Source: a virus
IMG/VR virus record: IMGVR_UViG_3300009419_000059
Coordinates: 1 to 30,502 of that record
Strand: one strand, 5' to 3'
Length of the DNA stretch: 30,502 nt
Numbering within the stretch: position 1 is the first letter of the stretch; every line of letters begins with the position of its first letter. Both the position numbers and the translations under genes were made by a program. A model generated the notes under the pieces. That model searched no databases. It saw only the letters and a list, made by a program, of their open reading frames with translations, and had not been told where the DNA came from. Below, piece by piece: positions 1-12,915 of this stretch.

Positions 1-1706
1 ATATTAGCCAACGGATTCATGGCGGCAAGGCGGTCTGCGATTACATCTGCACCAGGGAAGTCCATATTCCTAAACACCAAATCACCCGCAATATTGAACA
101 ATTCCGCATTGCCTGTGAGTAGCGGCATCATGCTTTCTACGGCTTGTTGACGCTTGGATTGGAAGCCTGGGCCTGTGTCCATCACCACATCGTACTCACC
201 CACCGTCACATCGTTAAGAACTTCACCAATTTCGTTCTTTTCATTGATTGTGGTCATATCTGGTTGACCATCTGAGCCAATGATTCGCATCACTCGCTGA
301 GTGTCATAAATGTAAGGAATCAAATCCAAGATGATTTTGCCCGTGTGCCTAATGGAACGGGTCATGTTGTCGTAGAAGTGGTAATTCGACAGATCAACTT
401 GGTTCTGTTGGCCTTGTAAAGCCTTGCCTGAGATGTTTCCAGAGGGCAATTGATTAGGGTCAAGGATGCCCAAAACCATCTGCAAGTCTGCGGAAATAGC
501 GCCAGCGGCTTCCATAATGCCTGTAGGAGGTGCTTCTGGCTGTAAACGTGTAGGAGTTGGGGCGGGTTGCCCTTCAATGTCCTTTTGTTTGTATCTCAGA
601 ACAGGCGTTGACTTGATGTTAGCCATTGCCCATTCGTTCTCGTGACCCTCGTCCTGACCTTCTGCAAGCAGCCACTTGGCTTTAGGTGCAAGTGCTACGC
701 TCTCGGTCATGGATGTGCGCCAGAAGTTGTACATCCGTTGTGGGTCTTTGGCAAACCTTACCAAACCGTATTTCTTGCGCTTGTCATCCACAATGACTTG
801 TGCGCCATAGCAAGGGACTACGGGAATGTACTTACCCGCCATAGTCTTTTCTTCCAAGACTTCCATAGCGGTGCATTTAATCCACTTTACCGCCTTGCGG
901 AAACTATTACGCTCATCAATTACGGTCAAACCAGAAGCCTCAACACGGGCAAAAAAGTTTTCTGAGTCGGCAAAGCCTGAAGTGCCATCGCTCAACAAAT
1001 AAAGTTTGGCTCGTTCACGCTCAATCCAGAAGTATTCGGCAACTCGAATGTCCTCTTTGGTGATCCATGCGGCTGTGTCATCGCCTGTGGAACGTTGTTG
1101 AAAGTTAGCCCCATCGTCAGCGCCTGGGTAACTTTCCCTAAATATCTTCTTGTCCATCACCGTAGTAATCAGGCATCGTTCTGCGTCTGAACCATCGGGG
1201 AGGACTGAATTGGGGTCAAAGTAAACAGTGAAAGGATTATCAATCGTATCAATGTAGATTTCCTGATCAAACGAATCTTCCCGTGTGTAACGGGTGTTCA
1301 CTCGCCAGTAACCCCAACCCATCCGCACTGCGTAGTCAAAGGCGGTGTCATAGGCTGTATCAGCATTGGAGTTCACTTCAATGTGACGGGTAATTCCCTC
1401 GATCACTTGGGCAATCTTGTAATCAGCCAAGTTATTCACAGGGTGAACTTTGATGCGGGGGCGTTGCATCCTTTGTTGGTTTGTCACTTGACGGATGTAC
1501 GCATCAATCTTGTTGATGGTCAAACAAGGGCGGGATTCAAGATTGCGTGAGTTTTGAATCTCTACAGGCCATTGATCGCCAGCGGCAAACTTTACATCTT
1601 GTAAGGCTTCGGCTCGGTTTGTAGAATCAGAATCATTGACCAAGCGCCAGAACTTGATCGCCTCGTTGATCTTTGAGTTTGCGCCTGTTTCGTCTTGGTA
1701 AGCCAT
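1..1706 (-). CDS. P22-type portal protein (3' end cut by window edge)
   Basis: The portal ring sits at one capsid vertex, docks the terminase, passes DNA and anchors the tail machine. Reading from ATG at 1706 (MAYQDETGANSK...) the frame is open for 568 codons to the window edge with no stop. Features typical of P22 gp1-like portals are an N-terminal helical part ending in RPCLTINKID, an RMGWGYWRVNTRY segment with a following DNPFTVYFDPNS block, and near the edge YDVVMDTGPGFQSKRQQ, which lines up with the YECYTDVGPSFQSMKQQ stretch that I recall from P22 gp1. The P22 protein has 725 residues, so roughly 100-150 residues are missing here. AAAGGT lies upstream of the ATG. TerL ends 38 bases upstream, giving the usual terS-terL-portal order. 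The family call rests on recognised motifs rather than on an alignment. Confidence 0.93.
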   Translation of the reverse strand, partial: MAYQDETGANSKINEAIKFWRLVNDSDSTNRAEALQDVKFAAGDQWPVEIQNSRNLESRPCLTINKIDAYIRQVTNQQRMQRPRIKVHPVNNLADYKIAQVIEGITRHIEVNSNADTAYDTAFDYAVRMGWGYWRVNTRYTREDSFDQEIYIDTIDNPFTVYFDPNSVLPDGSDAERCLITTVMDKKIFRESYPGADDGANFQQRSTGDDTAAWITKEDIRVAEYFWIERERAKLYLLSDGTSGFADSENFFARVEASGLTVIDERNSFRKAVKWIKCTAMEVLEEKTMAGKYIPVVPCYGAQVIVDDKRKKYGLVRFAKDPQRMYNFWRTSMTESVALAPKAKWLLAEGQDEGHENEWAMANIKSTPVLRYKQKDIEGQPAPTPTRLQPEAPPTGIMEAAGAISADLQMVLGILDPNQLPSGNISGKALQGQQNQVDLSNYHFYDNMTRSIRHTGKIILDLIPYIYDTQRVMRIIGSDGQPDMTTINEKNEIGEVLNDVTVGEYDVVMDTGPGFQSKRQQAVESMMPLLTGNAELFNIAGDLVFRNMDFPGADVIADRLAAMNPLAN

Positions 1707-1744: not shown

Positions 1745-3019
1745 CTAGCTCATCCAACTGCCAACATTGGCAATTTGTGCTGATTTCTTACGCTTTGTTG
1801 GCTCTTTAATCATAAGTGCAATGTATCTGAAAGCATCTGCACCGTGTGAATAATGATCGTGCAATGGGCTTCGACTGAACTGCCCCGTGTCTGGATCAAC
1901 CTCATAACGGTAATGCCTGAGACAAGAAAGCCCGTCTGCTGCGTGTTCCCGATCAAACCAACAACTTGGGAATATTGTCCTAGCCGCATTGATTGAGTCC
2001 ACGATTGGCACTTTTGGCAAGATTTGAGTCTTGTACCCTGCCGCCCTTACGATGTCATCGATTGACCGACCAGCTGCTGCCAACGTTTTATTCTCTGCAT
2101 CGTGCGGAAGCCAGATGGTGTCATAGACATACCCAAACGTCTGCATTGTTGCCATGTAATAGCTGATGGTCTTTTGACTGTCTTCAATGTATCGAATAAG
2201 GCGTGTTTCCATGCCTATGAACTGCAAAAACCAAATGGCGGTGCTATCTGACCACCCAAGGTCAAAAACCGCATGGACGGGCTTTGTAGCGTCATAAGGA
2301 ACACGGGTAATGCGTCCCTCTTTCTCGGCCTGTTGCATTTCTTTGGCAAAGATAGCCCCATCCACCGTTTGACGACACAAACCTTCCCAAACTTGGTTAT
2401 AGGCTTCCTCATCCCTTATCTTAAGGGAGTCTTTCTCAAGTTTAAGGGTTTCGGGAAACCAAGGGTTGTCGTACCAGTTCACCTTCATGGTGATGCAGTC
2501 AGCGGGGGGAATTGCCACAAATCTTTGATAAGTCTCGTCTGTCTCTAACTCAGGGTTAAAGCTGATCCATATCTCTGAGCCTTCCTTACGGATGGTTGGA
2601 ATCAGGATGTTCCACGATAGGCGGCTGGTTGTCTGTGCTTCCTCTACCCAACAAATATCAACCCCCTCATAGGACTTGATGTTTGAGACATTGTTCTTTA
2701 GGCCAACAAAGGCAAACTCTGTGCCGTTTTTGCCTCTGATGCTGTTTTGGGTGATCTCATAGAAACTCAGTAGGCCAAGACTTTCGATCTGGTCACACAA
2801 TAACTTGTGAACTGAGTCTTTGATGGATGTTTGAAACTCACGGGCGCACAGTATGCGGATTGGGTCTTTTGCGCCTTTGATCAATAGCGCTCTCGCTATT
2901 CCCCAACTCTTAGCCCCGCCTCGTCCACCATAAAGAACCTTGTAGCGGCTCTTTTGAAACAGACCTTCCAACTTAACGGGAAACTCTGCCTTTGCAATCG
3001 CATTGGCTAAATTGCTCAT
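1745..3019 (-). CDS. terL: Terminase large subunit (Sf6 gp2-like)
   Basis: This is the ATP-driven packaging motor and headful nuclease, which binds the portal during packaging. At 424 residues it is normal for the Sf6/HK620-type group. The ATPase has Walker A GGRGGAKS at residues 31-38 and Walker B with tandem acids (VDICWVEEAQ, 120-129). The RNase H-like nuclease acids appear as D253 (VFDLGWSDS), D307 (LPHDAEN) and D395 (SHGADAFRY). The N-terminal stretch around RYKVLYGGRG is very close to Sf6 gp2 as I know it. The ATG overlaps the terS stop by 4 bases (ATGA), so translation is coupled. The motifs look intact. Confidence 0.96.
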   Translation of the reverse strand: MSNLANAIAKAEFPVKLEGLFQKSRYKVLYGGRGGAKSWGIARALLIKGAKDPIRILCAREFQTSIKDSVHKLLCDQIESLGLLSFYEITQNSIRGKNGTEFAFVGLKNNVSNIKSYEGVDICWVEEAQTTSRLSWNILIPTIRKEGSEIWISFNPELETDETYQRFVAIPPADCITMKVNWYDNPWFPETLKLEKDSLKIRDEEAYNQVWEGLCRQTVDGAIFAKEMQQAEKEGRITRVPYDATKPVHAVFDLGWSDSTAIWFLQFIGMETRLIRYIEDSQKTISYYMATMQTFGYVYDTIWLPHDAENKTLAAAGRSIDDIVRAAGYKTQILPKVPIVDSINAARTIFPSCWFDREHAADGLSCLRHYRYEVDPDTGQFSRSPLHDHYSHGADAFRYIALMIKEPTKRKKSAQIANVGSWMS

Positions 3020-4883: not shown

Positions 4884-5073
4884 TTTTGGCATCTTCCGCT
4901 AAAACAGATTTGTTGAGTCCAGCAGCTAGTCTTTCTGCCAAACCTTTGTTCTCAGCTTCAAAACGCCTAAGTTCTCGATGTTCAGCGGGGCTGACCAAGC
5001 GTTCCTCGGTAGATGGAATCGGATAAGCGCTCTCCGTTGATTCCGTTGGCCCTAACTCGTTCAAGAGTCTCAT
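4873..5073 (-). CDS. Small helical protein overlapping the zeta-like kinase gene
   Basis: A 66-residue unknown with a disordered N-terminus and a charged helix (SPAEHRELRRFEAENKGLAE). Support for being real is an excellent ribosome site, AAGGAGGTTAT directly before ATG 5073. The first 92 bases lie in another frame inside the 3' end of the kinase gene, so the two genes share sequence. Being translated directly with a zeta-type kinase, it could be a regulator or antitoxin, but nothing in its sequence shows that. Confidence 0.62.
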   Translation of the reverse strand: MRLLNELGPTESTESAYPIPSTEERLVSPAEHRELRRFEAENKGLAERLAAGLNKSVLAEDAKNVR

Positions 5074-5890
5074 ATAACCTCCTTTTCACTTCATTCTCGC
5101 TTAGTTTAGGTAGCTTGTCAAGCTGGCTTGCTTGTGCTTTTCCTCTGCCCAACGAATTGTCAACAATTTGAATGTTTACTTTGGGGTTGTTCTTGTATTT
5201 CTTTTGCAATTGCTCAATGACTTGTCTAGCACCAATGTGAGTCCGCAAATGTTCAGTAATAGGGACGGTTCTGCCTGATCCCTTTTCTTTTTCCATTCTG
5301 TGCGCTCTGGACAAAGCACCATTTTCTAATGCTTCGGCTGGGTCACGATATGTGTAAAGAATACGAACTTTACGCTTGGCATCCAATGCCTGTTTGATCT
5401 TTTTGTCGGCAGATTCAAACTTATTCATGTTTGTGTCGTAAATCATTTCAGCGTTTTTAAGCGCTGGATCGACAGCTTCAAGCAAATCTAATGCAGTTGT
5501 TTTACCAGCTCCTGTGCCGCCAGCACTAAAAACAACCGTGTTGTCTTTGCCTTTGGGTGTTGGATTGGCTAATTTGTCAGCATAAAGACGCTTCATAAAA
5601 GCGCTTGATGGTTCGTGAACATTTGCCGATCTGGTGCGGTCTTCCCTGTAATCAGGGGACATCTCACGGGCCACATCGGTATTGATAACCCGTCCACCCT
5701 TAGATTCAGGATTGGCGTTGTATTCGTCAACTAATTGCAAATACTGATTATTTAAACGTGCAAAGTAAGCCTGTTCAAATGGATCAACCATTTGAGGCTC
5801 AGATGGCGGCATTAATGCAGATGCCCTGGTCATGCCAGGGTTGGGGCTTGGTTGCCCCGCTGCCATCATGCTGGACAGCGGGATAGCCAT
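4982..5890 (-). CDS. Zeta-toxin-like P-loop kinase
   Basis: The 302-residue protein has a disordered N-terminal third, then a P-loop domain. Walker A is GGTGAGKT (residues 124-131), followed by MIYDTNMNKFESADKKI, a strand RILYTYRDP, and the GRTVP motif at 206-210 followed by HLRTHIGAR. That order matches zeta-family kinase domains found in phage and mobile-element proteins. Classical zeta toxins phosphorylate UDP-N-acetylglucosamine and poison wall synthesis. The substrate here is unknown, and the acidic and arginine catalytic residues would need alignment. It is coupled to the upstream gene by a shared base (TAATG). No epsilon-type antitoxin is recognisable nearby. A role in host takeover or in the virion is equally possible. 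Confidence 0.75.
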   Translation of the reverse strand: MAIPLSSMMAAGQPSPNPGMTRASALMPPSEPQMVDPFEQAYFARLNNQYLQLVDEYNANPESKGGRVINTDVAREMSPDYREDRTRSANVHEPSSAFMKRLYADKLANPTPKGKDNTVVFSAGGTGAGKTTALDLLEAVDPALKNAEMIYDTNMNKFESADKKIKQALDAKRKVRILYTYRDPAEALENGALSRAHRMEKEKGSGRTVPITEHLRTHIGARQVIEQLQKKYKNNPKVNIQIVDNSLGRGKAQASQLDKLPKLSENEVKRRLYETLERVRANGINGERLSDSIYRGTLGQPR

Positions 5891-6546: not shown

Positions 6547-6882
6547 TCAGGCCCATTGTGCGGTGTCTGGAATGGGGATGTCAAGAGGCCATTTGCCCTG
6601 ATTACACAAATTCTCCACGGTTGCTACATGAGCCTCAAGCCACATCTTTTTGCGCTCGTCTTTGCTTAAATGTGCGCCTTGGTCAATTTTGTAGTGGCAT
6701 TGAAGGCAAAGAGCCGCCACGCAATTATCGTCAGCCTTAATCCCTTTACCTTTACCCGCACCCCAATTTGCGTGTGCCGCCTGAACCCCGTTATCTATGC
6801 CACAACTTTGACAAGCTAAATTTGCTACTAGCTTTAGGAGTTTCTGGCTTCTCACATATTGATGCTTCAAATATTGTGTCAT
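6547..6882 (-). CDS. HNH-type nuclease (YbcO/DUF1364-like)
   Basis: A 111-residue protein with a zinc-bound HNH layout: CQSC (24-27), QAAHANWGAGKGKGIKADDN with H37, then ALCLQCHYKIDQG with C59, C62 and H63. The AH...G.G.K.DD...C..CH..ID order matches YbcO/DUF1364 and related nin-region nucleases of lambdoid phages, which act in recombination or DNA processing. The position in a nin-like block supports this. No strong ribosome site is seen. The first 92 bases overlap the preceding zinc-ribbon gene in another frame. A GTG ten codons in is a less likely start. Confidence 0.78.
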   Translation of the reverse strand: MTQYLKHQYVRSQKLLKLVANLACQSCGIDNGVQAAHANWGAGKGKGIKADDNCVAALCLQCHYKIDQGAHLSKDERKKMWLEAHVATVENLCNQGKWPLDIPIPDTAQWA

Positions 6883-7012: not shown

Positions 7013-7166
7013 TTTTATCCTCAATTCCTTCGTAAATTAACTGAAGTTTGACTAATTCCAAAGCCCCAATGATTGTCGCCATGTAAAGGGACTCATCGTA
7101 TTTGTTGATTGTGTAGAGCAAATCTTCAATAAGACTGTCCACCAGTTCACCCTGGTTAAAGTTCAT
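6993..7166 (-). CDS. Small acidic helical protein, 57 aa
   Basis: Unrecognised. The product MNFNQGELVDSLIEDLLYT... continues as an acidic, leucine/isoleucine-rich helix, and is too short for routine ORF thresholds. Support comes from the AAGGAATTGAAGC ribosome site, an ATGA overlap with the ninB stop, and its filling of the otherwise empty gap between ninB and the zinc-ribbon gene, whose start it overlaps by 20 bases. Confidence 0.68.
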   Translation of the reverse strand: MNFNQGELVDSLIEDLLYTINKYDESLYMATIIGALELVKLQLIYEGIEDKNDVSRL

Positions 7167-7564
7167 GCTTCAATTCCTTTGTTTGCCATCCAACACAATA
7201 GCCACTCAATAAACTCTGAGCCTTCCTCAACCGTGAATTTGTGGCTTTGAAGTCCTAACTGGACAACTCTTTCACCGTCTAGGCTTGGTGCAACCTTGCC
7301 GATCTTGCGGTTTGTCTCATGCGCCCATTGATCAATCAAAAGGCGCTTCCAATCGTCCGCTGACCACGTTGACCCAACCACCTTCATGGCCTTATAAACC
7401 TTGTCTATCAGGGCATGAAACATATCGTTCTGGTCTGTGCTTCGAGTGGCTTTTTTAACTTCCAAGCGTAATTGTTTGCCAGCTTGCAAAGATTCTTTAA
7501 TCTTGGGCCATAAGTCTTTTAAAACTGTATGGGCCTGTTGACTGTTATGTAGGCTAAAAATCAT
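7163..7564 (-). CDS. ninB: NinB-like recombination protein
   Basis: The 133-residue length and the block KKATRSTDQNDMFHALI, then GSTWSADDWKRLLIDQW and HET, identify the NinB (lambda Orf) family. Lambda Orf is a dimeric DNA-binding recombination mediator that can replace RecFOR with SSB-coated single strands. The gene sits between two nuclease-type genes in a nin-like block and is joined to neighbours by ATGA-type overlaps. GAGGACTT precedes the ATG. This supports phage recombination-dependent replication together with ERF and exonuclease in the opposite operon. Confidence 0.9.
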   Translation of the reverse strand: MIFSLHNSQQAHTVLKDLWPKIKESLQAGKQLRLEVKKATRSTDQNDMFHALIDKVYKAMKVVGSTWSADDWKRLLIDQWAHETNRKIGKVAPSLDGERVVQLGLQSHKFTVEEGSEFIEWLLCWMANKGIEA

Positions 7565-8079: not shown

Positions 8080-8179
8080 AGTCTCCCGTAAGTTCAAGCG
8101 CTTTTGTAATGACAAAGTGGCTAAATTGCTGGCCTTCTCTGACCCGATCAAGAATTCTGTTTGCTTCATAGTGGGTCAT
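7943..8179 (-). CDS. Small phage protein with a conserved N-terminal half
   Basis: Residues 1-34 (MTHYEANRILDRVREGQQF, then ITKALELTGD) match a pattern common in short phage proteins. The remaining 44 residues lie in the frame overlapping the gene at 7900-8079 and look unselected (GGRQGGSP...). The ATG overlaps the P-like stop (ATGA) without a strong ribosome site. The likely history is that an original stop after the conserved part was lost, extending the frame through the next gene. Function is unknown. Confidence 0.55.
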   Translation of the reverse strand: MTHYEANRILDRVREGQQFSHFVITKALELTGDYETNGSIGMDQAIQKESAGGRQGGSPILVAADFGRHCQEARPSSC

Positions 8180-8565
8180 TTTGCGTATTGCTTTTTCATT
8201 GCAGCCAATTTTGCAAGTGCTTCTGCTCTGATCCTGTCGCTTTCAATCTGCTCATGCAGCGTTTTCTTTCGCTCAATCAAAACTTCAGTTGGCGGTTTGA
8301 CAGGAATTGATGGGCCTTGATTGCACATATCACGAAAAGCCAATGCGCTGGGGGGGAAATCTTTGTCCAGTTTGTCAAGCGCAAAGTCCATACTTGGCTT
8401 GTAGGTCAAGAATCTGCCCAGGCATCGCTTCCATGTTTCACGCACCAGCGTTGGGTCAACGTCTTGCCAATGGGTGATAAACCGTGAACCGTAAATGGCG
8501 TTCATCATCCCAAAGATGTAATCAAAGCCTGAGTCGGCATCACAAAAGTCGTTTTCGTTCCACAT
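8176..8565 (-). CDS. Replication protein P-like (helicase loader candidate)
   Basis: A 129-residue protein: FGMMNAIYGSRFITHW, then DPTLVRETWKRCLG, then FPPSALAFRDMCNQG and a helical charged tail. The aiyG..F...W ... R..W...L ... fPPs...F..lC order is that of the lambda P / phage replication P group, which loads the host DnaB-type helicase at the origin. It lies directly downstream of the O-like gene with a short overlap, the lambda O-P order. GGAGGCTGAAA precedes the ATG. Sequence identity to lambda P is clearly low, so the role rests on pattern and context. Confidence 0.66.
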   Translation of the reverse strand: MWNENDFCDADSGFDYIFGMMNAIYGSRFITHWQDVDPTLVRETWKRCLGRFLTYKPSMDFALDKLDKDFPPSALAFRDMCNQGPSIPVKPPTEVLIERKKTLHEQIESDRIRAEALAKLAAMKKQYAK

Positions 8566-9253
8566 TTTCAGCCTCCAAAATTACAGTCTCAGGTTTAGCC
8601 CAAAATGGCGTTTGTGGGATTGATTTGCCCCTGGTCAACTCTGCCATGACGTTTTGACGTTCCTCAGAACGGGTTAATTTTTCTTTCACCCATGCAGCCT
8701 TGAATGTTTGCCAGTTCCTGACAACAATTTCATTCAATGCTTCCTCAAGTGTCCAGCCAGCCAACTTTGCCTGTCCAACAATGGCATCCATCACCCGTTC
8801 AGTAATTTGCGCTCGCCTGGCTTTTCTTTGTTTGACAAATGAATTCCAAACTTCAAGCGAAACGCCTTCAGGCGGTTTTGCCTCTTTCTTTGTCTCTTTC
8901 TCTCCCTCTCCCTCTGTCTCTCTCTCTGTCTCTGGGATAGCAACTTGATAGCGTTCTGCTAGCATATCACTAGCAACAACAAAAAACCCGTTTGAAATCA
9001 ACGGTTGAAGCCCTTGCTGGTATTCTTTTTCTGAAATATGCAGCCTAAACACCAGTTCATCTAATGAGCCATCAAAAACACCATCTTTTGATTCACTTGC
9101 TAGCAACCAAAGCATAGGCGCTATCGCTTTGCTAGCAATAGGCAAGCGCATAAAAGCTCTGTCATTTAACAGGTCACGATGAAGTTTTATCCAAGGAGGA
9201 CAACGGTCTTTGTAATGTTGAAAGACTGCCCAATTTTTTGGCTGTAAAAGCAT
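8540..9253 (-). CDS. Replication initiator, O-like
   Basis: The 237-residue protein starts MLLQPKNWAVFQHYKDR and continues CPPWIKLHRDLLNDRAFMRLP, the N-terminal signature of a large phage replication-protein group with winged-helix DNA-binding fold. A charged, repetitive Glu/Thr/Lys linker follows (about residues 106-122), then a helical C-terminal region (EALNEIVVRNWQTFKAAWVKE) likely to bind the loader. I chose ATG 9253 with GTGGAAAAAT upstream. The upstream TTG at 9331 is unsupported. As in lambda, candidate origin sequences lie inside this gene (8881-9137). Confidence 0.8.
   Translation of the reverse strand: MLLQPKNWAVFQHYKDRCPPWIKLHRDLLNDRAFMRLPIASKAIAPMLWLLASESKDGVFDGSLDELVFRLHISEKEYQQGLQPLISNGFFVVASDMLAERYQVAIPETERETEGEGEKETKKEAKPPEGVSLEVWNSFVKQRKARRAQITERVMDAIVGQAKLAGWTLEEALNEIVVRNWQTFKAAWVKEKLTRSEERQNVMAELTRGKSIPQTPFWAKPETVILEAENVERKRLL
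8881..9137. other. Candidate replication origin inside the O-like gene
   Basis: Three exact copies of the palindrome TGCTAGCA (8957-8964, 9098-9105, 9130-9137) and one variant (CACTAGCA, 8968-8975) fall within 181 bases. Spacings of 11 and 32 bases are about one and three helical turns. Next to them are an A-rich stretch (8975-8986) and a 56-base pyrimidine-rich tract (8881-8936, purine-rich on the coding strand). Lambda-type origins lie in the initiator gene with iterons beside an A-rich unwinding region. Function is inferred from this layout. Confidence 0.45.
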
Positions 9254-9266
9254 ATTTTTCCACTTT

Positions 9267-9307
9267 AAAAAACCACTTAAAAGAAACTGCGGCAGGGGAG
9301 AAGTGGT
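9267..9307 (-). terminator. Possible attenuator between the Cro-like and O-like genes
   Basis: On the minus strand ACCACTT ... AAGTGGT pairs over 7 bp across a 22-base loop that holds a smaller CTG/CAG pairing, and the stem runs straight into TTTTT. A second inverted repeat, GGAATGG/CCATTCC, lies just upstream (plus 9315-9336). The position matches lambda tR1, between cro and the replication genes. The long loop makes termination weak at best. Confidence 0.4.
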
Positions 9308-9359
9308 AACCCTTTTCGGAATGGGGATCAATCCATTCCTAGCCGTGTTTCAAACAATC

Positions 9360-9518
9360 TTAAACCATAAACCATTCAGGCCGCAACGCTTTTAATTGCC
9401 ACACCCTAGCTTGGGGAACTGTGTCACCCCATTGGCTGATGGCTGCTCTTGTAATGCCCAGCAGCTGTGCCAGGTTCTTTGCAGACCCAGCGTTTTTTAT
9501 AGCTTGCAATTTATCCAT
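9360..9518 (-). CDS. Cro/YdaS-like HTH repressor, 52 aa
   Basis: The 52-residue product (MDKLQAIKNAGSAKNLAQLL then GITRAAISQWGD, VPQARVWQLKALRPEWF) is a compact helix-turn-helix of the YdaS/DicC-type Cro family. The LAQLLGITRAAISQWG part is the HTH. It is first in the leftward early operon. There is no Shine-Dalgarno. The -10 box TAATAT ends 7 bases before the ATG, so the transcript should begin at or next to the start codon (leaderless). The operators at both divergent promoters are its likely targets. No larger CI-type repressor gene is present. Confidence 0.87.
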   Translation of the reverse strand: MDKLQAIKNAGSAKNLAQLLGITRAAISQWGDTVPQARVWQLKALRPEWFMV

Positions 9519-9524
9519 GTTTGC

Positions 9525-9553
9525 ATATTAAGCCAACTTACACAAACAGTCAA
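9525..9553 (-). promoter_or_regulatory. Leftward early promoter (pR-like)
   Basis: On the minus strand TTGACT (plus 9548-9553), a 17-base spacer and TAATAT (plus 9525-9530) form a near-consensus sigma70 promoter. It drives the Cro-like and replication genes. The operator at 9528-9541 overlaps the -10 and spacer, so repressor binding would block RNA polymerase. Confidence 0.85.
9528..9541. promoter_or_regulatory. Operator at the leftward promoter
   Basis: TTAAGCCAACTTAC is an imperfect copy of the 14-bp palindrome at 9603-9616. Read on the minus strand it agrees with that site at 11 of 14 positions. Its offset from the -10 box is the same as at the rightward promoter. The Cro-like product is the expected ligand. 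Confidence 0.65.
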
Positions 9554-9590
9554 ATACCCGACAAATTTAAGGGGGCTTTATAAATACCAT

Positions 9591-9619
9591 TTGACAAGCC
9601 AGTTAAGCTAGCTTAATAT
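9591..9619 (+). promoter_or_regulatory. Rightward early promoter (pL-like)
   Basis: TTGACA (9591-9596), a 17-base spacer and TAATAT (9614-9619) form an almost ideal sigma70 promoter. It reads into the LPD29-like gene and the recombination operon. The -35 boxes of the two divergent promoters are about 37 bases apart, leaving no room for a cI-like gene between them. Confidence 0.9.
9603..9616. promoter_or_regulatory. Operator palindrome at the rightward promoter
   Basis: TTAAGCTAGCTTAA is a perfect 14-bp palindrome lying in the spacer and the first half of the -10 box. Related sites occur at 9528-9541 and 10780-10793 with the same offset to a -10 hexamer, which is strong evidence for a shared repressor site. 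Confidence 0.75.
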
Positions 9620-9628
9620 TCACCCATG

Positions 9629-9664
9629 CCCTGACGTTTCGGGGTCTTTTAAAAGGAAATCAAA
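9629..9664 (+). other. 5' leader hairpin and ribosome site, copy 1
   Basis: CCCTGA-CGTT-TCGGGG forms a 6-bp stem (one U-G pair) with a 4-base loop (9629-9644). GTCTTTTAAAAGGAAATCAAA follows in two parts, with the AAAGGA ribosome site. The same ATGCCCT...GGGTCTTTTAA...GGAAATCAAA frame occurs at 10803-10845. The leader may tune mRNA stability or initiation. Confidence 0.55.
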
Positions 9665-10210
9665 ATGACCACTCAATATCTTTCTTGCGCTGAGACTGCA
9701 AAATTAGTTCGTGCAGCTCTCAAAGAATCTTTCCCTAGCATCAAGTTCTCTGTTCGCTCTAGCACATACAGCATGGGCGCTTCAATCAACATCAGCTATA
9801 CCAACGGCCCAACTTACGATGCTGTCAAAAATGTTGTGGCAATGTTTGAGGGCGCTTACTTTGACGGTATGACCGATTACAAAGGTTACAACTACAGCAG
9901 TCTTGACGGTGTTGAAACTAGCTTTGGCGCTAACTACATTTTCGTTAGGCGTGAATTGACTGTAGAAGTTATGCAAGCAGCTGTGCAAGCGGCTTGTGAA
10001 TATTACGGTTTGCAAGTGCCAGCTGTAAAAGACGGTTGCCAAGGCGCTTACATTGCTGATTCTATTGATTACAACGATCAAAGACGCATCATGGATCGGG
10101 TTTCTGCTCTTAGCTTTTGCGAGACACAGCCTAGCCCCACATTGGCCCGTGTTGCCTTTTTAGGTGATGACGGTTACGGCTTTAATTCTGTTGGACGTTT
10201 GGCAGCTTAA
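9665..10210 (+). CDS. LPD29-domain-like protein
   Basis: The 181-residue protein begins LSCAETAKLVRAALKESFP, then IKFSVRSSTYSMGASI and FEGAYFDGMTDYK. This order matches LPD29, a domain found alone or in large polyvalent proteins of phages and plasmids and often seen near anti-restriction or counter-defence genes. Its biochemical role is not established. It is the first gene of the strongest rightward promoter, so it is made at once after DNA entry, which fits a host-takeover or anti-defence role. That role is inference. The C-terminal third (residues about 110-181) I do not recognise. Confidence 0.78.
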   Translation: MTTQYLSCAETAKLVRAALKESFPSIKFSVRSSTYSMGASINISYTNGPTYDAVKNVVAMFEGAYFDGMTDYKGYNYSSLDGVETSFGANYIFVRRELTVEVMQAAVQAACEYYGLQVPAVKDGCQGAYIADSIDYNDQRRIMDRVSALSFCETQPSPTLARVAFLGDDGYGFNSVGRLAA

Positions 10211-10769: not shown

Positions 10770-10796
10770 TATTTAGTTGTTAAGCTAGCTTACAAT
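10768..10796 (+). promoter_or_regulatory. Second rightward operator/promoter cassette
   Basis: The operator copy TTAAGCTAGCTTAC (10780-10793) differs from the 9603-9616 palindrome only in the last base. A -10-like TACAAT (10791-10796) sits at exactly the same offset. The -35 position (10768-10773, AGTATT) is poor. A similar leader follows. The cassette looks like a duplicated promoter whose -35 has decayed, or one that needs an activator. Confidence 0.55.
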
Positions 10797-10802
10797 CACA
10801 TC

Positions 10803-10842
10803 ATGCCCTAGCAAATCGCACAGGGTCTTTTAAGGAAATCAA
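10803..10842 (+). other. 5' leader hairpin and ribosome site, copy 2
   Basis: ATGCCCT...AGGGTCTTTTAAGGAAATCAA repeats the layout of the leader at 9627-9664. CCCT (10806-10809) pairs with AGGG (10822-10825) and the ribosome site AAGGAAATC follows. The hairpin loop sequence differs between copies while the stem and the downstream block are kept. Confidence 0.5.
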
Positions 10843-11474: not shown

Positions 11475-11660
11475 ATGATTGACCAATTTAAAGATTACTT
11501 CCGCTTGCCATCAGCCAAAGAGTTGGCAGCCAAAGAACTTGAAATGGCCCAGCGCAAGCTATTAGAGGCTCTCAGCGCTCAGGAATACGCAAAGCGCATG
11601 GGTGACTACCACTCAGACCGAATCAAACGCCTAACGGCTTATTTAAAGGAAGAAACATGA
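11475..11660 (+). CDS. Small coiled-coil protein of the recombination operon
   Basis: A 61-residue, highly charged helical protein: MIDQFKDYFRLPSAKELAAK followed by alanine/leucine heptads and DRIKRLTAYLKEE. Short proteins with the FRLPSA.ELA.KEL opening occur next to phage recombination genes; their role is unknown. I chose ATG 11475 because GGAGAGG lies upstream. The frame is open from 11412 but that part overlaps the microprotein. The stop overlaps the ERF start (ATGA). Confidence 0.72.
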   Translation: MIDQFKDYFRLPSAKELAAKELEMAQRKLLEALSAQEYAKRMGDYHSDRIKRLTAYLKEET

Positions 11661-12214
11661 AAAACTTAGCAACCGCATTGGTCAAGGCTCAAAAGGCTTT
11701 TGGCCCTGCTTTAAAGTCCTCTACAAACCCGCATTTCAAGTCACGCTATGCTGACCTATCCGCTTGCGTTGAAGCTGTCCTAGACGCTTTAAACAACAAC
11801 GGGATTGCCTTAGTTCAGAAATCTTATGACTGTGAAAATGGCGTAATGGTTGAAACCATGTTTGTCCATGAATCAGGCGAAATGATGGAGTGCGGGATTC
11901 TTCACTTCCCTGCAAGCAAGGCAGACCCACAAGGCCACATGAGTGCTTTGACTTATGCCCGTAGGGGATCGCTGATGGCGGCTTGTGGTATTGCACCCGA
12001 GGATGACGATGGCAATGCCGCCAGCCGCAGAACCGTGATTACTCCAACAATCAATGAAAGCGCCCTTGTAGACCACTTAGCGGCTATTGAGGCATCTACC
12101 GACCAAGATAGTCTGAAAAACGCCTACAAAGCCGCTTATACCGCTTGCAATGGTGATTCTGAATGGCAAAAGAAAGTTATCGCTGCCAAGGACAAAGTTA
12201 AAGCTAAATTATGA
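11657..12214 (+). CDS. erf: ERF-family single-strand annealing protein
   Basis: Family members bind single-stranded DNA and anneal complementary strands in RecA-independent recombination. P22 Erf circularises the permuted genome after injection. The 185-residue protein has the ERF core: FKSRYADLSACVEAVLDAL, NGIALVQKS, VETMFVHESGE, then LTYARRGSLMAACGIAPEDD with the conserved D/E cluster and DGNAA. The C-terminal part (about 125-185) is helical. It is coupled to the neighbours on both sides by 4-base overlaps. With the exonuclease next door it forms a two-component recombination system and fits a headful, circularly permuted genome. Confidence 0.93.
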   Translation: MKNLATALVKAQKAFGPALKSSTNPHFKSRYADLSACVEAVLDALNNNGIALVQKSYDCENGVMVETMFVHESGEMMECGILHFPASKADPQGHMSALTYARRGSLMAACGIAPEDDDGNAASRRTVITPTINESALVDHLAAIEASTDQDSLKNAYKAAYTACNGDSEWQKKVIAAKDKVKAKL

Positions 12215-12915
12215 AAACATTAGAAGATGATGAATTTGATTTTTTAGAAAAATCAATTGCTTGGCGTAAACGACAAATAGGAAACAAAATGATTGAAATG
12301 ATTGAACAACGCTCAGACGCATGGTTTGAGGCTCGCATTGGCAAAGTCACCGCATCCCGTGTGGCTGATGTGCTTGCCAAGACCAAAACGGGTTATTCAA
12401 CAAGCCGTGACAACTACATGGCTCAGTTGGTGTGCGAACGCCTCACGGGTCAAAAAGGCGATAGTTTTAGCAATGCCGCTATGCAACATGGAACTGAAAC
12501 AGAGCCGCTTGCCCGTATATCGTATGAAGTCGCTCAAAACGTCTTGGTTGATGAAGTGGGGTTTGTCCCCCATCCATCCATCATCATGGCGGGCGCTTCC
12601 CCTGATGGCCTAGTTGGTGACGATGGCCTGTTAGAAATCAAATGCCCAAACACAGCCACGCACATTGAAACTTTGCTTAGTCAGACTGTGCCAGGCAAAT
12701 ACAACACCCAGATGCAATTCCAAATGGCTTGCACAGGGCGTAGTTGGTGTGACTTTGTGTCTTTTGACAATCGTCTGCCCGCAGAACTTCAGTTGTTTGT
12801 TAAACGTGTCCCAAGGGACAATATGTATATCAGACTAATGGAAGAAGAAATTGTCAAATTCTTGAATGAACTTGACATCAAAATTGCTCAACTTATGGAA
12901 ATTAAAAATGTCTAA
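12211..12915 (+). CDS. YqaJ/lambda-exonuclease-family nuclease
   Basis: The enzyme resects double-strand ends to give single strands for the ERF protein. Motifs numbered from ATG 12211 are EQRSDAWFEARIGKVTASR (32-50), HGTETEPLAR (93-102), and the metal-binding core D132 (ASPDGLVG), E142-x-K144 (LLEIKCP), followed by QMQFQMACTGR. Length 234 is usual. Start: ATG 12211 overlaps the erf stop but has no ribosome site. ATG 12289 (MIEMIEQ) has AGGAAAC upstream and matches the usual N-terminus. The 26 extra residues (MKTLEDDEFDFLEKSIAWRK...) look coding and may be a small ancestral gene fused in frame. Confidence 0.9.
   Translation: MKTLEDDEFDFLEKSIAWRKRQIGNKMIEMIEQRSDAWFEARIGKVTASRVADVLAKTKTGYSTSRDNYMAQLVCERLTGQKGDSFSNAAMQHGTETEPLARISYEVAQNVLVDEVGFVPHPSIIMAGASPDGLVGDDGLLEIKCPNTATHIETLLSQTVPGKYNTQMQFQMACTGRSWCDFVSFDNRLPAELQLFVKRVPRDNMYIRLMEEEIVKFLNELDIKIAQLMEIKNV

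Follow-up and report, generated by a model that had tools for sequence, protein, structure and literature searches.

The early genes of this virus are probably run by an obligately lytic lambdoid circuit of the P22 type, in which a small Cro-like protein, the only regulator found, throttles all early promoters alone. The window (the whole stretch of 30,502 bases analysed) is a virus contig classed as linear, a fragment of a P22-type podovirus with P22-like scaffold, coat, Hc3 head closure and DNA ejection genes, in addition to terminase and portal. The phage is of freshwater origin and shares head-closure genes (40%) with Rhodoferax phage P26218; a nucleotide search of the phage collection with the window gave no match. 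For a collection scan with Cro, a mixed alignment (A1) was too diverse, and a clade-only alignment (A2) was used instead, yielding about 250 viral loci. The genes, promoters, operators and RNA structures described below, their conservation, and the absence of cI and int are features of the sequence itself.

Layout of the early region and absence of cI and integrase

The control region consists of two divergent promoters with several operators beside a cro-like gene, as in a lambdoid immunity region (Table 1). The promoters score 9 and 10 of 12, both have 17-bp spacers, and their -35 boxes are 37 bp apart (9554-9590), exactly the interval that the first-pass annotation had estimated. That annotation had also recognized the general layout; the operator lying between the -35 boxes, P3, the predicted leaderless start of cro and the RNA elements had escaped it. 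Promoters, operators and cro are kept across 97 distinct regions, a degree of sequence conservation that rules out chance. The cro start codon follows the end of the best -10 hexamer by 5-7 nt in 91 of these 97 regions, against 4% of shuffled sequences, and the cro messenger is predicted to be leaderless, starting at its AUG or adjoining it.

The lambda-like character assigned earlier to the two arms holds for the O-like, NinB and NinG-like HNH genes leftward and for the ERF and YqaJ genes rightward; the supposed P gene owes its name to position, family searches having returned no P/DnaC match. For the O-like gene, the ATG at 9253 is a likelier start than the listed TTG at 9331, which lies inside the int-alpA-type RNA; with many relatives the match begins no earlier than residues 25-27. 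Among the nin-side genes lies one for a zeta-toxin-family kinase (4982-5890, minus strand; PF06414, 51 bits), which is kept in relatives.

Table 1. Position of the genes, promoters, putative operators and RNA elements in the window
Feature	Coordinates	Strand	Basis
Portal gene, cut by window start	3-1706	-	family/relative comparison
NinG/YbcO-like HNH nuclease	6547-6882	-	phrog_131, E 9e-24
NinB/Orf	7163-7564	-	PF05772, 67 bits
Small gene in P position	8176-8565	-	placed by position only
O-like replication gene	8540-9253	-	phrog_678, E 4e-15
int-alpA-type RNA, three-way junction and predicted pseudoknot	9272-9362	-	RF02996; covariation; own model
cro-like gene, 52 aa, P22_Cro/YdaS family	9360-9518	-	Pfam and profile match
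P_cro, TTGACT-17-TAATAT	9525-9553	-	near-consensus hexamers; predicted start at cro ATG
Putative operator in P_cro spacer, TTAAGCCAACTTAC	9528-9541		9/10 match to TTAAGN4CTTAA
Putative middle operator between both -35 boxes, TTAAGGGGGCTTTA	9567-9580		TTAAGN4CTTAA type; outside both promoters
P_right, TTGACA-17-TAATAT	9591-9619	+	near-consensus hexamers; conserved in relatives
Putative operator in P_right spacer, perfect palindrome, TTAAGCTAGCTTAA	9603-9616		10/10 match to TTAAGN4CTTAA
P_right leader	9626-9664	+	5'-AUG-CCC-UGA, hairpin 9628-9645, U-run, Shine-Dalgarno
First rightward gene, LPD29-domain protein	9665-10210	+	PF18847, 79.3 bits
P3, third operator-bearing promoter	10780-10805	+	putative operator TTAAGCTAGCTTAC 10780-10793; -10 TACAAT 10791-10796; AUG-CCC-UAG from 10803
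ERF annealing protein	11657-12214	+	PF04404, 71.5 bits
YqaJ/exonuclease	12211-12915	+	PF09588, 99.2 bits

The window's record contains no match to PF00589, PF00239 or PF00717, and its single HTH_3 candidate did not pass. Opposite cro, where a CI-type repressor would be expected, lies the LPD29 gene, and neither a tyrosine nor a serine integrase of the kind that marks a temperate lambdoid was detected. The same holds in the clade: family searches found no cI, integrase, resolvase or S24 repressor in some 50 related contigs, of which two are complete, under conditions in which P22 (integrase, S24) and the prophages in G014 and G016 gave matches. HTH_3 matches in clade contigs correspond to the Cro gene itself and are sub-threshold, the exception being a weak match inside a 640-codon frame of G003. 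Most relatives are fragments, and the claim of absence is carried by the two complete ones (G002 and G004, each with 123-bp terminal direct repeats) and by the number of long contigs. The segment missing from the window, from the last portal residue held to the first scaffold residue, measures 866-909 bp in five of six relatives and 1,413 bp in the sixth. The end of portal and the start of scaffold nearly fill it, and the longest version adds a 126-aa open frame. A missing piece this small (about 0.9-1.4 kb) and mostly given to portal and scaffold leaves no room for cI plus int. Thus, the suggestion that cI, rex and integrase are lacking stands, and the search proposed at the time, of the missing piece (as present in six relatives) and of the clade's contigs, turned up neither cI nor int.

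A virulent lifestyle fits the lack of an integrase and of copies in bacterial genomes. One could envision the phage being temperate by another route, through an unrecognised repressor, an episomal state held by Cro or integration functions provided in trans. Several small ORFs match no family, the zeta-toxin-like gene belongs to a class that also takes part in plasmid maintenance, and maintenance without CI would not be visible from sequence. However, clade contigs contain no integrase, resolvase or ParA-type ATPase, the clade's Cro occurs in none of 84,980 bacterial and archaeal genomes, and the only bacterial assemblies with related capsid genes are metagenome bins, labelled Burkholderiales and Pseudomonadota, in which five short contigs carry them. 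This alternative is, in our judgment, improbable.

The Cro protein and its putative operators

The 52-residue protein belongs to the P22_Cro family (PF14549), scoring 48.7 bits against a curated cut-off of 30.2, and all 13 clade members compared match the same family (E up to 0.01). The match to YdaS (PF15943) also passes its cut-off (31.5 versus 30 bits) and is the weaker of the two; YdaS itself was named a Cro homologue in earlier work (PMC5917428). A profile of the Cro family finds the solved P22 Cro structure, 1rzs, with an E value of 5e-16.

Sites agreeing with TTAAG-N4-CTTAA in at least 9 of 10 positions number four in the window, against 1.2 expected. Among 84 distinct upstream regions, three AAGN4CTT cores are present in 43, two in 19 and four in one, so that at least two occur in 63 of the 84; none of 1680 shuffled regions had more than one. 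The annotated O_R region of P22 contains TTAAGTCATCTTAA, whose half-sites and spacing match those of the P_right operator. These palindromes are best regarded as putative Cro operators. The core in P_cro is present in 63 of 64 regions whose Cro has Arg at residue 24 and in none of the 18 with Gln24, a contrast that follows clades, the sequences not being independent; we take it, as support only, to link the protein to the site. No shared TTAAG core was found at P_cro in the Gln24 clade, and half-site matches are weaker there. Alternatively, the palindromes might serve a host regulator or simply belong to the architecture of the promoters, since two of them overlap promoter hexamers sharing TTAA/TAAT-like letters. 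Against this, the middle site is conserved outside both promoters, half-site and N4 spacing equal those of the repressor-binding region of P22, and the loss of the P_cro site follows the recognition helix. We consider such a reading of the palindromes quite unlikely.

With P22-type operators in both spacers, and with the P_cro site lost along with the recognition-helix change, the Cro-like protein very probably governs both divergent promoters, as had been proposed when the gene was first noticed. From these features we infer the binding of Cro, the timing and start sites of transcription and the functions of the RNAs, as follows. On entry, the divergent sigma-70 promoters would fire, cro-O-nin being expressed leftward and the recombination genes rightward; the second rightward promoter, at 10780, would also feed the rightward arm. 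Accumulating Cro dimers would then occupy the operators between -35 and -10 boxes and close P_cro, P_right and P3, the central operator probably aiding occupancy. The outcome would be a self-limiting early pulse that works as a timer, with no bistable, heritable state because no CI competes with Cro. Part of the tuning might take place at the RNA level, through leaderless cro and the structured int-alpA-type RNA that follows it. Models of the lambda switch ask what Cro does alone, and the viral loci collected here appear to supply that case. As their operators vary alongside Cro, the lytic role of Cro would be open to study without CI.

RNA elements in the two arms

The predicted transcripts from P_right and P3 both open with ATG-CCC-stop (9626-9634 and 10803-10811), the stop being TGA and TAG, respectively; in both leaders this start is followed by a hairpin, then a U-run and then a Shine-Dalgarno sequence. 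Among relatives, the third codon is a stop in 38 of the 40 leaders that have AUG-CCN, and all three stops occur. The hairpin is likewise maintained: a C-G pair is swapped for G-C in six of the 26 distinct leaders, and pairing holds in 92.6% of hairpin cells, whereas shuffled versions reach 85% and slid ones no more than 63%. The hairpin on its own might account for part of the AUG-CCN-stop pattern. There is a precedent in axe-txe, where a leader minigene of two codons is known to influence translation (PMC8708949). A strict requirement for the stop was dropped as an idea (two leaders are without it, and in some the ATG is lost), and L164, L215 and others have leaders of a second type that differs from the main one. 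We also rejected a plain intrinsic terminator as the main reading of the hairpin, which lies at the 5' end of the transcript and in some relatives has an interrupted U-run (UCUAUUU).

The element after cro, initially described as an attenuator, is indeed present, and its identity can be refined to a structured RNA related to int-alpA (RF02996), a family that sits near int and alpA genes. The window's copy aligns over the full length of the model (positions 1-71), forms the consensus three-way junction and has the conserved CGAAAAG...CCUG; it differs from the family in its location between cro and O and in scoring 25.9 bits (E 0.0032), under the gathering score of 35.8. RNAs at the same position in relatives exceed that score (44.3, 38.0, 38.8, 37.4 and 37.0 bits), and 10 of the 16 pairs of the junction covary. 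Our own model gives the window 87.3 bits, the window being itself among the model sequences, and detects the RNA in 29 of 50 sources, one copy each and directly upstream of the O gene in the relatives inspected; both the count and the O-adjacent location are partly by construction, the model having been built from window-like sequences. The loop of hairpin 2 is complementary to a stretch past the U-run (AAGTGG). The longest complement of loop and tail averages 6.0, against 4.5 (sd 0.14) when tails are swapped among relatives, a permutation result that supports a pseudoknot. In position, the element is the counterpart of lambda nutR/tR1 and of HK022 putR.

The slot downstream of cro looks interchangeable. 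One relative (G001, L009) has a Cro 98% identical to that of the window yet carries another RNA-like sequence in place of the int-alpA RNA, which indicates that the content of the slot is exchanged among close relatives. At L015:4276-4470, L183:2095-2290, L196:3399-3560 and L220:1258-1420 it is filled by different RNAs, whose predicted folds are very stable (about -53 to -77 kcal/mol); in L015 and L183 the RNA has the promoter-like TATGTATAAT ahead of it and a terminator-like end behind. The RNAs of L015 and L196 had no Rfam match, nor did that of L183 in a search at gathering thresholds. Matches for L220 and L201 to plant or animal miRNAs and a viral IRES were far under gathering scores and were taken as chance.

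It is tempting to speculate, if only tentatively, that in a large lytic lambdoid clade the CI and antiterminator layers have been replaced by a multi-operator governor made of Cro only and by RNA control. The latter would comprise the leaderless cro, the 5'-terminal Met-Pro-stop minigenes in the rightward leader hairpins, and the int-alpA-type pseudoknotted RNA, which from its nutR/putR position would influence, in cis, either elongation into the replication gene or the translation of that gene. For the orphan int-alpA RNA, the present findings provide a conserved address in an early phage operon, between cro and O, and add a covarying pseudoknot, making its function directly testable.

Origin of the circuit and comparison with known systems

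Two temperate cousins, on integrase-bearing contigs (L043 and L045), have a gene of the cI type divergent from cro, encoding 135 aa in one and 216 aa in the other (the latter protein with an S24 domain), in the slot taken by the LPD29 gene in the window. Operator-like palindromes lie between cI and cro, and cro has a Shine-Dalgarno leader. The initial reading had left a choice between a naturally virulent derivative and a simpler ancestor of lambdoid circuits. Its virulent part agrees with our results. Of the two origins, derivation from temperate lambdoids is more likely, since the cousins share the operator type and have cI where the window has its LPD29 gene, although a 52-aa protein is unable to root a tree. 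That the Cro-only circuit came first, and that cI and int were later additions in temperate lambdoids, is very improbable: a large clade does show the arrangement widely and in self-consistent form, but the cousins speak against it, as do a gene order and nin genes like those of temperate P22.

As far as the literature was searched, the conserved combination of multiple operators, leaderless cro and int-alpA RNA is undescribed, and no publication directly describing a P22-type clade with Cro alone came up, subscription papers being mostly outside coverage. Some of its elements have precedents. In the text searched, virulent Streptococcus thermophilus phages with a "lysogeny replacement module" are described as retaining remnants of the lysogeny region (PMC5601072, PMC8470116); these phages are unrelated and have Gram-positive hosts, and the same text does not mention cro. 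Phages devoid of CI and carrying a Cro-like gene are already present in databases. In Pantoea phage PdC23 (NC_071008) and Marinomonas phage P12026 (NC_018269), as in the window, one Cro-like regulator is divergent from recombination genes and neither an integrase nor an S24 repressor is matched. Their Cro proteins are 50% identical (PdC23) and 44% identical over 36 aa (P12026) to that of the window, both genomes lack an int-alpA match, and the divergent gap of PdC23 is 450 bp. Three metagenomic circular phage genomes from Manatee Spring (MW202520, MW202462 and MW202674) resemble the window in their terminase, their ERF and the genes of the O side, and searches for integrase and S24 gave nothing in them; their Cro counterparts are distant. 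MW202520 also has an int-alpA RNA above the gathering score, sited on the recombination side (2423-2489, minus strand), ahead of an endonuclease gene and away from both the ERF-side regulator and the O gene.

A further comparison is with the early control region of Salmonella phage P22 (NC_002371). P22 has the c2 repressor, c1, c3, gene 24 antitermination with nut sites, and an integrase, none of which was found in the window; unlike the window, it gives no int-alpA RNA match. Its cro lies about 30 bp past its promoter, whereas that of the window is predicted to be leaderless. In both, however, a Cro of the same family is accompanied by TTAAG/CTTAA half-sites at 4-bp spacing, several operators lie between divergent promoters, the O-nin order is the same and the other arm carries Erf-type recombination genes. 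The promoters of the two arms, which flank c2 in P22, stand 37 bp apart in the window.
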